In this document: one piece after another, positions 11,997 to 15,027 of the stretch
Numbering within the stretch: position 1 is the stretch's first letter
Layout of the letters: the number at the start of each line of letters is the position of its first letter
NCBI GenBank assembly: GCA_020849495.1
Contig: JADLGD010000094.1
Span: 1 to 39,844, forward strand
Origin: Fluviicola sp.
GTDB lineage: Bacteria; Bacteroidota; Bacteroidia; Flavobacteriales_D; Crocinitomicaceae
Direction of reading: 5' to 3'
Length of the DNA stretch: 39,844 nt
The notes under the pieces: generated by a model
What the model was told of the DNA's origin: nothing
The model's database searches: none
Seen by the model: the letters and a program-made list of their open reading frames with translations, nothing else
Position numbers and translations under genes: made by a program

Positions 11997-12563
11997 ATGC
12001 AAACCGGAACTATAAACATCAATACGAAGCAAATTCTTTCATCCTTTGTAACAGAGATGAACGATAAGGGTATGAAAAATATCACGCTCGCTCATATTGG
12101 TGGTGTCAATCAAGATTTAATTAATAGTCTTTCTACAAATGTGGAAGATTTTATGATTTCTGCTGGCGACAAAAAACCATTGATAAAACGTGTTTTTAGT
12201 ATTGTCATTGAAGGATTGCAAAATGTATTGATTCACGGTGAACGTTTGGATGGAGTGCGCCTAGGTTTGTTAGTGATCGCCAATAATGAATCCCTCTATC
12301 GTGTATCGATGGGAAACATTACCCAGGTTACTGAAAGAGAAAAAATCACAGCTTATTTGGATAAATTAAACCAATTCGATGACGAAGAGGTGAAATCATT
12401 TTATTTAGAAACGCTCAACAATGGATTGATTTCTGAAAAAGGAGGAGCTGGTTTAGGCTTTATCACCATGCGTATGAAATCAAAACACCGTTTGGATTAT
12501 CAATTTTTAGATCTAGGAGATGGATTGTTGTTTTTCTCTATTACAACTGATTTAGAACGTTAA
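11997..12563 (+). CDS. SiaB-like (GHKL-fold) protein kinase / anti-sigma-type regulator
   Basis: The 188-residue protein has the layout of SiaB-family kinases: an N-box helix with EGLQNVLIHGE (about residues 73-83), and a G-box GGAGLGFITMRMKSKHR (about 145-161). In Pseudomonas SiaB phosphorylates the STAS-like protein SiaC and so tunes a diguanylate cyclase. No siaC-like gene is adjacent here, although a true STAS protein with a phosphorylatable Ser motif lies at 17210. A near-match -7 box TACCTTTA is at 11970-11977. Family placement is from motif and length; substrate is unknown. Confidence 0.75.
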   Translation: MQTGTININTKQILSSFVTEMNDKGMKNITLAHIGGVNQDLINSLSTNVEDFMISAGDKKPLIKRVFSIVIEGLQNVLIHGERLDGVRLGLLVIANNESLYRVSMGNITQVTEREKITAYLDKLNQFDDEEVKSFYLETLNNGLISEKGGAGLGFITMRMKSKHRLDYQFLDLGDGLLFFSITTDLER

Positions 12564-12605
12564 TTCCCTTTTTAAACTTTTACAACTCCAAATTGTTTGC
12601 TAGGA

Positions 12606-13514
12606 ATGTCATTTCACGTAGCATTTTCGCCGATTTATGTTCACGCTGTTCCAGAAGGACATCGTTTTCCAATGCTTAAATACGATTTACTTCAACAACA
12701 ATTGGTTTTAGAAGGATTAGTAGAATCAGCAGATTTTGTTCACGCTTCACCGATTCAATTGAAATATCTAAAAGACGTGCATTCTGAAGCCTATTTAAAC
12801 AAATTGATTTCACTTAATTGTACACCTAAAGAACAACGCGTTTCTGGTTTTGAGCACAATTCGGAATTGATTCAACGCGAGTTAGTCATCATGGAGGCTA
12901 CTCGTTTGTGTGCAAAGTTGGCACTAGAAACAAATGGTGTTGCTTTGAATATTGCAGGTGGAACACATCATGCTTACGCTGATAGAGGAGAAGGTTTTTG
13001 CTTGTTGAATGATCAGGCAATTGCAGCGAATTGGTTACTGAAAGAACAATTGACCGAACGAATTCTCATCATTGATTTAGATGTGCATCAAGGAAATGGA
13101 ACGGCAGCCATTTTTCAAAACAATCCATCCGTCTTCACCTTTAGTTTTCACGGTGCAAGTAATTATCCATTGAAAAAAGAGTTGTCCGATTTGGATGTTG
13201 CATTACCAGATGGCACAAATGATCAAGCTTATTTATCACTTTTAGAATTACATCTTTCGAAAGTTATTGCTGTATTTAAGCCTACGTTTCTCTTTTATCA
13301 ATCTGGTGTTGATGTGTTGGCAACGGATAAATTGGGAAAATTAGGTCTTTCAATTGAAGGAACAAAACAGCGAGATCGTATCGTATTTGAGTTTGCTAAA
13401 TCATTAAACATTCCCATTGTTTGCAGTATGGGCGGAGGGTATAGTAAAGAAATTCGTTACATTGTAGAAGCGCACATGAACACGTTTCGATTGGCACATT
13501 TTTATTTTTCATAG
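12606..13514 (+). CDS. Histone deacetylase-like (AcuC/HDAC superfamily) hydrolase
   Basis: This 302-residue Zn-dependent deacylase has the expected active-site series: GGTHHAYADRGEGFC (His-His pair), LIIDLDVHQGNGTA (Asp and His zinc ligands), YQSGVDVLATDKLG (third zinc Asp) and the GGGY loop near the end (MGGGYSKEI). In bacteria such enzymes remove acyl groups from lysines or polyamines; the substrate here is not predictable. ATG 12606 was chosen over the upstream TTG because MSFHVAFSPIYVH fits the family start. It sits 42 bp after the SiaB-like gene on the same strand. Confidence 0.92.
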   Translation: MSFHVAFSPIYVHAVPEGHRFPMLKYDLLQQQLVLEGLVESADFVHASPIQLKYLKDVHSEAYLNKLISLNCTPKEQRVSGFEHNSELIQRELVIMEATRLCAKLALETNGVALNIAGGTHHAYADRGEGFCLLNDQAIAANWLLKEQLTERILIIDLDVHQGNGTAAIFQNNPSVFTFSFHGASNYPLKKELSDLDVALPDGTNDQAYLSLLELHLSKVIAVFKPTFLFYQSGVDVLATDKLGKLGLSIEGTKQRDRIVFEFAKSLNIPIVCSMGGGYSKEIRYIVEAHMNTFRLAHFYFS

Positions 13515-13522
13515 CACTTTGC

Positions 13523-13552
13523 TTGCAAAAAAGAATTTAGCAATTATCTTTG
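13523..13552 (+). promoter_or_regulatory. Bacteroidota promoter of the small Cys-rich gene
   Basis: TTG (13523-13525), a 19-nt spacer, then TATCTTTG (13545-13552), an exact match to TAnnTTTG. This is the best two-part promoter match I found in the window and lies 22 nt before the ATG at 13575. A TTTGC-TT-GCAAA dyad (13518-13529) overlaps the -33 element. Confidence 0.65.
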
Positions 13553-13574
13553 TGTAGAATTAGTCTAAATAAAG

Positions 13575-13715
13575 ATGAAACAACAATTGATTCCTTCCAA
13601 TGAATTTGAAAAAGCATTGAATCATTGCTTGAATTGTTCTTGTGACAAGAAAAAAGACTGTTGTAAAAAGTACAAGAAAAAAGGAGTTCATTGTAAAAAG
13701 TGTCCCAAATTATAA
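13575..13715 (+). CDS. Cys/Lys-rich miniprotein (46 aa)
   Basis: A short reading frame (ATG 13575, TAA 13713-13715) encodes 46 residues with seven cysteines at 18, 21, 23, 29, 30, 40 and 43: CLNCSC, then DCCKKYKKKGVHCKKCPK. Twelve lysines make it strongly basic. The pattern CxxCxC-CC-CxxC suggests a metal-binding knuckle. It has no signal peptide. It is preceded by a well-formed promoter and occupies an otherwise empty gap, which supports it being real. I recall similar small CCKKYKKKG-type proteins from other Bacteroidota but cannot name a family. Function unknown. Confidence 0.7.
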   Translation: MKQQLIPSNEFEKALNHCLNCSCDKKKDCCKKYKKKGVHCKKCPKL

Positions 13716-13745: not shown

Positions 13746-14246
13746 ATGAACCGAGTAATGCTTTTGTTTTCTTTCATGTTGCTTCCTTTTTTGGGTAGGA
13801 CACAAGATGATTCAAAATCAGCGATTGCTGCAACTTTTCAATACCATCCTTACGATTTTTTTCTTGGTTTAGGTTATCAATATGCTCCACAAAAATGGGA
13901 ACAGGAAGCACGTTTAAGTATTGGTTTGAACCGTTCACTTTTTCAGAGAAGGTTTTATCCTAAATTGACTTACATTTTTGCTTATCGATTAACTGTTTAT
14001 AAAACCTTTTCATGTGCTCCTTTTCTTCGTTTAGACGCATCCTTTCTAGATGTTTCAAGCGATGTCAATACGAATCGATTAACCTGGTTAGAGCCAAATC
14101 TTGGAATAAATGTAATGAACGGAAAACGATTGAAATACGGTTTATCATCAGGTATTGGACCTTCGTGGGAATGGAGTTCTCAACATTCGGGCGCCATACA
14201 AACTTGGAATGTTTTTGCTGAAATCAACTTGACTTATGCGATTTAA
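13746..14246 (+). CDS. Probable small outer-membrane beta-barrel protein (166 aa)
   Basis: Signal peptide (MLLFSFMLLPFLGRTQ, cleavage near residue 20) followed by alternating hydrophobic/polar strands rich in Tyr, Phe and Trp, each 8-12 residues long (FFLGLGYQYA, EARLSIGLNRS, LTYIFAYRL, FAEINLTYAI), and a C-terminus ending in a strand. This is the look of an 8-stranded porin-like barrel. No named family is recognised. Its last 11 bp overlap the start of the GDPD-like lipoprotein gene, so the two are translationally coupled and probably both act in the envelope. Confidence 0.75.
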   Translation: MNRVMLLFSFMLLPFLGRTQDDSKSAIAATFQYHPYDFFLGLGYQYAPQKWEQEARLSIGLNRSLFQRRFYPKLTYIFAYRLTVYKTFSCAPFLRLDASFLDVSSDVNTNRLTWLEPNLGINVMNGKRLKYGLSSGIGPSWEWSSQHSGAIQTWNVFAEINLTYAI

Positions 14247-15027
14247 TTGGCTTTTATTTCTGGTGTTGGTTCTCATTGCTTGTCAGCGAAAAGACCGTTT
14301 TTCTTCCGTAGAAATTCTTGGACACGCAGGTTCTGGTTTAACCAATTCAACCAATCCGTATCATGACAATTCTTTAGAATCGATTCAGTATGCGATGCAA
14401 TTCGAAGAAGTGGAAGGAGTAGAAATTGACATTCAAATTTCAGCGGATACAACGGCTTGGTTGATGCACGATATGCAGCTTTCTATTGAAACGAATGGAA
14501 CAGGATGTGTGACACAATCTTCGGATGCCTATCTAGCAAGTTTACGTTACAAAACGCTCGAAAAAGAGCAATTGGTTCGTTTGAAAGATGTGCCGAATCT
14601 GTTTTCAGGAAAACACTTGATTTTGGATTTAAGAGGAAGAGATGGTTGTGAAAATCTTCCAGTTCCATTAGCAGTTGTTTTGAAAGCCTTAGAAACTGTT
14701 CCAAATCAATTTCCGGGAGCAGATTTAATTGCCATGATCGATGATCAAACGTGGTTGGATTCGCTCAAAAACAGAGGATTCGCGGTCTATTTGAATGCCT
14801 ACAATAAAACCAACTTTTATCAATACAATTGGCAAGCATTTGATGGAGTGTGTATCAATAATTCAGCAATTTCAAAAGAAGATGTGACAGAATTGTTGGG
14901 ATTGAACAAAAAAGTTGTCATTTTTGGAGTCAGAGCGCCCAAACCCATTCGTCAAGCACTAAAAAAACAACCGAGTTTTTTATTGACAGATGATATTAAA
15001 GCGACATTAATTGAAAAGTACAGATGA
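14236..15027 (+). CDS. GDPD-family (glycerophosphodiester phosphodiesterase-like) lipoprotein
   Basis: The 263 residues start with a lipoprotein signal ending LIAC (Cys near residue 16). The GDPD TIM-barrel is recognisable: ILGHAGSG (catalytic His), DNSLESIQYAMQ (the usual PENT motif altered), GVEIDIQIS (metal-binding Glu-x-Asp) and LMHDMQL (second catalytic His). The usual HRG is HAG, so the conserved Arg is missing. GDPDs cleave glycerophosphodiesters into alcohol and glycerol-3-phosphate; with Arg lost, activity or substrate may differ. It overlaps the preceding barrel gene by 11 bp and the next gene by 4 bp. Confidence 0.8.
   Translation: MRFNWLLFLVLVLIACQRKDRFSSVEILGHAGSGLTNSTNPYHDNSLESIQYAMQFEEVEGVEIDIQISADTTAWLMHDMQLSIETNGTGCVTQSSDAYLASLRYKTLEKEQLVRLKDVPNLFSGKHLILDLRGRDGCENLPVPLAVVLKALETVPNQFPGADLIAMIDDQTWLDSLKNRGFAVYLNAYNKTNFYQYNWQAFDGVCINNSAISKEDVTELLGLNKKVVIFGVRAPKPIRQALKKQPSFLLTDDIKATLIEKYR

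Follow-up and report, generated by a model that had tools for sequence, protein, structure and literature searches.

The miniprotein gene and its surroundings

The window, by which we mean the whole stretch of 39,844 nucleotides analysed from Fluviicola sp. (GenBank assembly GCA_020849495.1, contig JADLGD010000094.1), contains a short gene for a Cys- and Lys-rich protein of 46 residues. The features of this locus are the following:

13523..13525, + strand: TTG of the -33 promoter element (pattern match, exact spacing TTG-N19-TATCTTTG)
13545..13552, + strand: TATCTTTG, -7 element of the TAnnTTTG type (pattern match)
13553..13570, + strand: predicted Fur box TGTAGAATTAGTCTAAAT, two mismatches to TTTAGAATNATTCTAAAT; palindrome following the -7 element and preceding the ATG at 13575
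13575..13715, + strand: gene of the 46-aa miniprotein (frame, relatives, selection)
13650..13706, + strand: conserved core K26–P44, CC-x9-C-x2-C-P, with a FhuF_C-like Cys pattern (alignment, TIGR03950 matches, pattern counts)
13746..14246, + strand: 166-aa gene with an N-terminal signal-like stretch (by eye), possibly a co-transcribed neighbour within this bacterial family; downstream homologue on the same strand in 23/90 miniprotein loci
14236..15027, + strand: glycerophosphodiester phosphodiesterase-like gene (PF03009) overlapping the 166-aa gene; downstream homologue in 25/90 miniprotein loci

Translation of the frame 13575–13715 yields MKQQLIPSNEFEKALNHCLNCSCDKKKDCCKKYKKKGVHCKKCPKL, with start, stop and length as in the preliminary description. 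The seven Cys in a CxxCxC-CC-CxxC layout reported there are confirmed by the residue count (positions 18, 21, 23, 29, 30, 40 and 43); instead of the twelve Lys claimed, however, the protein has 13, and its computed pI is 9.4. Among the small open reading frames of 30–60 aa in the window 3/225 contain at least seven Cys, compared with 14/11,032 in 30 shuffles of the window. In these shuffles, as in those used for the Fur box below, the dinucleotide content is kept only approximately.

The miniprotein gene is preceded by a SiaB-family kinase-like and a histone-deacetylase-family gene (11997–13514), which have upstream homologues in 19 and 13 loci, respectively. On the downstream side no terminator-like site was found between the miniprotein gene and the 166-aa gene, and no Pfam family matched the latter. 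The order of the 166-aa and the phosphodiesterase-like gene (13746–15027) is kept in about 25 loci, and in 11 loci a SUI1-like gene comes after the phosphodiesterase-like gene. A fixed functional neighbour of the miniprotein can be ruled out, since no gene is common to all loci and the commonest downstream families are just the two listed above with 25 and 23 of 90 loci.

Conservation of the miniprotein family

In a protein search, 66 of 99 related genomes had a match at E≤1. After inspection of the DNA, and with four weak matches (L137–L140, E 0.09 to 0.65) excluded as non-members, 53 members in 53 genomes were confirmed. When the family alignment was used as query at E≤0.01, the sample of the order had matches in 181 of 399 genomes and that of the class Bacteroidia in 97 of 395, nearly always with one copy per genome; in an earlier sample of the phylum the narrower alignment A1, at a threshold of E≤0.001, matched 10/395 genomes. 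A contig scan for relatives gave at least four loci from MAGs, and a search of plasmids found no plasmid copies.

In the alignment of 50 members Cys29, Cys30, Cys40, Cys43 and Pro44 are invariant and Lys26, Lys27, Lys31, Tyr33 and Gly37 nearly so. The core of the family thus reads CC-x(8-9)-C-x2-C-P, and the motif was found in 124 loci, of which 90 are unique and 88 have 240 nt of upstream sequence; these numbers comprise the best-scoring loci plus fetched ones, which are mutually related. The spacing CC-x9-C-x2-C occurs in 70 loci and CC-x8-C-x2-C in 19. The three N-terminal Cys vary (CxxCxC is present in 25/53 members and CxC in 28/53), so that with regard to relatives the frame and the four core Cys are conserved as expected from the preliminary description, whereas the N-terminal part of the layout is not. 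A metal-binding protein had been suggested there, which the invariance of the four core Cys makes likely; for the nucleic-acid binding suggested alongside we find nothing specific beyond the positive charge.

For the core the pooled pN/pS of 14 members from the genus is 0.058 (pS 0.93, pN 0.054). A low pN/pS (0.089) is also found for that antisense frame in which the third codon positions mirror those of the sense frame, as would be expected from this mirroring. The low pN/pS of the core and the homologues across the class strongly support a real protein-coding gene, evidently under purifying selection, and rule out a random Cys-rich frame.

The libraries searched contain no model for the family in Pfam or NCBIfam: seven Pfam families matched one of the 50 members each, none of them repeatedly, and no Pfam family was common to all. 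No relative of the miniprotein was found by sequence in the PDB. An AlphaFold2 model computed from the 50 members has low confidence (mean pLDDT 68, pTM 0.37); its best part is a helix (residues 26–36) which includes Cys29 and Cys30 and leads into the CxxC loop. Foldseek found no match of this model in the PDB, and given its low confidence we regard the model as compatible with a four-Cys site and nothing beyond that.

The promoter region contains a predicted Fur box

The motif TTG-N19-TATCTTTG claimed upstream of the frame is indeed present at 13523–13552; the window contains no other exact copy, with 0.1 expected. The looser form TTG-N19-TAnnTTTG, however, occurs twice with 1.3 expected, so that the promoter is not distinctive by itself and cannot be upheld as the best one in the window. 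For the same reason the window alone is no proof of the gene; this proof is supplied by the relatives. With these the preliminary description holds in its central point, a conserved Cys- and Lys-rich miniprotein with a real promoter, as indicated by homologues in related genomes, the box upstream and the low pN/pS.

Directly adjacent to the -7 element lies the palindrome listed above as a Fur box, a feature which had been missed, and in relatives a near-perfect TTTAGAATNATTCTAAAT is found at the same place. It is the same palindrome as the Fur box 5'-ATTTAGAATTATTCTAAAT-3' described for Riemerella anatipestifer, where gel shifts with Fur are reported for four promoters (PMC5609570). Outside that report we did not find the spellings of the palindrome in print in the literature searched.

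For each of the 88 loci the 240 nt preceding the CC codons were scored for the best match to the box. With up to three mismatches a box is present upstream in 70/88 loci, whereas 0/88 of the control segments downstream of the genes have one and shuffles predict 0.2; as the loci are related, 88 should not be taken as a count of independent events. The box is retained even though the neighbouring genes change from one lineage to another. Of the 71 boxed miniprotein loci 42 have TAnnTTTG immediately 5′ of the box, 20 have it on the 3′ side and 9 have neither arrangement, and in some members the box is found elsewhere around the promoter.

A conserved predicted Fur box at the miniprotein gene is therefore well supported and places the gene in the iron-starvation response. 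Lying over the start or the promoter, the box points to repression, i.e., Fur would repress the gene and iron shortage would induce it.

Other genes with the box and a second palindrome

The host genome has two matches to the Fur family (93 and 23 bits). In 14 genomes of the genus the box pattern (≤1 mismatch) gave 47 strand-wise matches compared with one for the reversed control. Next to these sites lie, among others, nuoA-nuoB and genes for a multiheme cytochrome c, TonB receptors and a SufS-type aminotransferase, and the sufA-sufB operon has a box with two mismatches at its start. A further site adjoins a gene for a secreted protein followed by one with a weak periplasmic-binding match (E 0.0046). 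By eye this pair looks like a heme-uptake operon, with the secreted protein presumably being HmuY-like. A few sites lie beside genes without evident iron link. Judged from the adjoining genes, the predicted regulon overall is an iron and iron-sulfur gene set.

In many genomes of the genus (L042, L083, L091 and similar loci) a conserved gene for a multiheme cytochrome c has the box TTTAGAATCATTTTAAAT upstream of it at a distance of about 130 nt, and in the genome of the window this box is also found upstream of nuoA (L040). The distance between box and start there is unlike that at the miniprotein gene, so Fur might act in another way.

A second palindrome, AATACC-N8-GGTATT (≤1 mismatch), was found upstream of 18/88 miniprotein genes, with none expected from shuffles at that level. 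Ten of these 18 genes have a Fur box as well and eight do not; at the cut-offs used, at least one of the two elements is present in 78/88 miniprotein loci and neither in 10/88. Throughout the genus genomes the second palindrome occurs at 41 places compared with 4 for the control pattern. It is found at the sufA promoter, which thus combines this palindrome with the Fur box at its start, at a gene for an imelysin-type lipoprotein and at DUF4856 genes, and several sites lie inside unrelated genes. Examples are L141, L162 and L170 for sufA, L157 for the imelysin gene, L142 and L164 beside DUF4856 genes, and L029, L115, L116, L119–L121, L126 and L129 for the miniprotein. The 3′ end of the palindrome often overlaps the -33 element. 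We considered IscR/Rrf2 as a general reader of the palindrome and ruled this out, because one genome (G010) with a perfect palindrome at sufA (L162) is without an Rrf2 match.

The conserved core resembles the C-terminus of FhuF

When scanned singly, 15 of the 50 members matched the NCBIfam model TIGR03950 (siderophore ferric iron reductase) with a best E of 5.4e-4, and one member matched TIGR03951 (FhuF) with an E of 0.061; none of 50 composition shuffles matched any FhuF-type model. For eight members scanned singly the matches to TIGR03950 and TIGR03951 lie at the extreme C-terminal end of the models, e.g., at 202–223 of 223. The protein of the window itself reaches an E of 4.5 with TIGR03950.

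The siderophore-iron reductase FhuF is described as a Fur-controlled protein which binds a [2Fe-2S] cluster with the motif C-C-x10-C-x2-C (PMC8068687). The E. coli protein ends with RRTCCQRYRLPDVQQCGDCTLK, a segment that Pfam assigns to FhuF_C, its model of the C-terminal 2Fe-2S domain, and in the C-terminal ends of FhuF proteins that we fetched the spacings are x9-x11 and x2-x3. The pattern [RK]..CC.[RK][YHF].{6,8}C.{2,3}C[PTA] fits 10/10 FhuF ends, 68/90 miniprotein loci and 3/200,000 shuffles, numbers which overstate the case as the pattern was written after both families had been seen. Locus L260 was excluded from the FhuF set, as the frame chosen there is without the motif.

The E of 4.5 just given and the following comparisons speak against common descent. 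The Pfam model FhuF_C (PF11575) matched 0/50 members at E≤1; of four FhuF proteins scanned, three carry this domain at E≤0.01. Profile–profile alignment of the two families with hhalign resulted in a probability of 2.8% (P 0.016), and HMMs built each way fail to separate the two families from decoys. No match to the catalytic domain of FhuF (PF06276) was found in the 50 members, and the miniprotein would be far too short for it; without this domain the miniprotein is not a FhuF. We conclude that miniprotein and FhuF appear to share a ligand pattern and, as predicted from the box, their control, while homology is not proven. In the literature searched we found neither the core motif of the miniprotein spelled out nor a publication on FhuF-like miniproteins that stand by themselves. 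That the core resembles the FhuF motif had, like the Fur box, escaped the preliminary description, whose observation is sound and under-interpreted.

Proposed role of the miniprotein

The miniprotein is probably a small iron-handling protein made under iron shortage. In particular we favour, with nearly even confidence, a Fur-repressed iron-starvation protein which binds a [2Fe-2S] cluster or iron and has a small redox or iron-transfer role. When iron is present, transcription would be blocked by Fe-loaded Fur bound to the palindrome that separates the -7 element from the ATG; when iron falls, the gene would be expressed. The basic core would form a short helix with the vicinal Cys29-Cys30, followed by the Cys40-x2-Cys43 loop, and, as the motif suggests, these four Cys could be the ligands of a [2Fe-2S] cluster or of iron, much as at the FhuF C-terminus. 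Judging from the regulon and by analogy, the protein might then act in redox or iron transfer, either helping to free iron from an internal ferric store or a ferric chelate, or feeding iron or clusters to Suf. The bound cofactor, the redox or iron-release role and the partner are the biochemical side of this proposal, which we infer.

One alternative is a [2Fe-2S] miniprotein of the Bfd type, which would dock with its basic face on ferritin or bacterioferritin and pass electrons in, so that stored iron comes out. Bfd is Fur-repressed and binds bacterioferritin, and the predicted Fur control, small size, Cys content and basic character of the miniprotein would suit this role, which may be vacant in the genus, as the Fer2_BFD domain is absent from 14/14 of its genomes. 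The Cys of Bfd, however, are spaced CxC-x31/32-CxxC, a spacing the miniprotein does not have, with the N-terminal CxC being restricted to the 28/53 members mentioned, and Pfam Fer2_BFD (PF04324) matches 0/50 members. We therefore consider this explanation unlikely.

Alternatively, the core Cys could bind zinc structurally, with the protein being a metal buffer or an adaptor that modifies a partner enzyme in iron starvation. Four Cys in a small basic domain are typical of zinc knuckles; the four invariant Cys of the miniprotein stand in such a domain, and the modelled helix 26–36 with the subsequent CxxC loop would agree with this. Yet both the predicted Fur control and the resemblance to the FhuF pattern speak for iron, and no zinc-domain family stood out among the seven Pfam families with their single matches. 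A zinc knuckle thus appears improbable to us.

Still another explanation, a Fur-controlled basic peptide like FbpB which would spare iron by aiding a small RNA or RNase against mRNAs of iron-rich proteins, could draw on the similar size and charge of the miniprotein (46 aa, 13 Lys, pI 9.4), but we think it quite improbable, as the invariance of four Cys across 50 members would not follow from charge by itself and RNA binding is described as unproven even for the Fbp proteins (PMC8464778).

Returning to the iron- or cluster-binding protein that we favour, a broader proposal can be made, which we regard as possible but with more doubt than confidence: the miniproteins could be a Bacteroidota-wide family of free-standing FhuF-type [2Fe-2S] proteins, one-motif iron reductases or mobilisers which are made only under iron shortage and do the job of FhuF or Bfd with about 45 residues, and in several lineages miniprotein gene and suf operon would have a two-box promoter (Fur box and AATACC-N8-GGTATT) in common via a second iron regulator. 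The gene is present in a quarter of the Bacteroidia genomes sampled (97/395) and can be missed when length cut-offs are applied. Should the proposal be true, a central but overlooked component of iron homeostasis would have been found in a major phylum, and with it a very small protein in which the unusual cluster motif of FhuF is used on its own. The miniprotein would then be a handle on how these bacteria release or reassign iron in starvation.

Comparison with known systems

We know of no conserved Cys core in the Fbp proteins, and the comparison with them is one of size, charge and regulation only: the miniprotein is small and basic, of similar size and, as predicted, Fur-regulated, but it comes from a different phylum. 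In Bacillus subtilis FbpA (54 aa), FbpB (48 aa) and FbpC (29 aa) are described as small, basic and regulated by Fur (PMC8464778). With Bfd (PF04324) the miniprotein shares the small size, the richness in Cys and the predicted Fur control; the spacing of the Cys is different, a Pfam match is lacking, and the Fer2_BFD domain itself is missing from the genus. The third of these systems is FhuF. The miniproteins have basic-CC-basic-aromatic-x-C-x2-C near the C-terminus as FhuF does, and a predicted Fur control stands beside the Fur control described for FhuF (PMC8068687). Unlike FhuF with its about 260 aa, however, the miniproteins have 40–60 aa, are Lys-rich and without the catalytic domain, and they have the spacing CC-x(8-9)-C where in FhuF mostly x10 is found.
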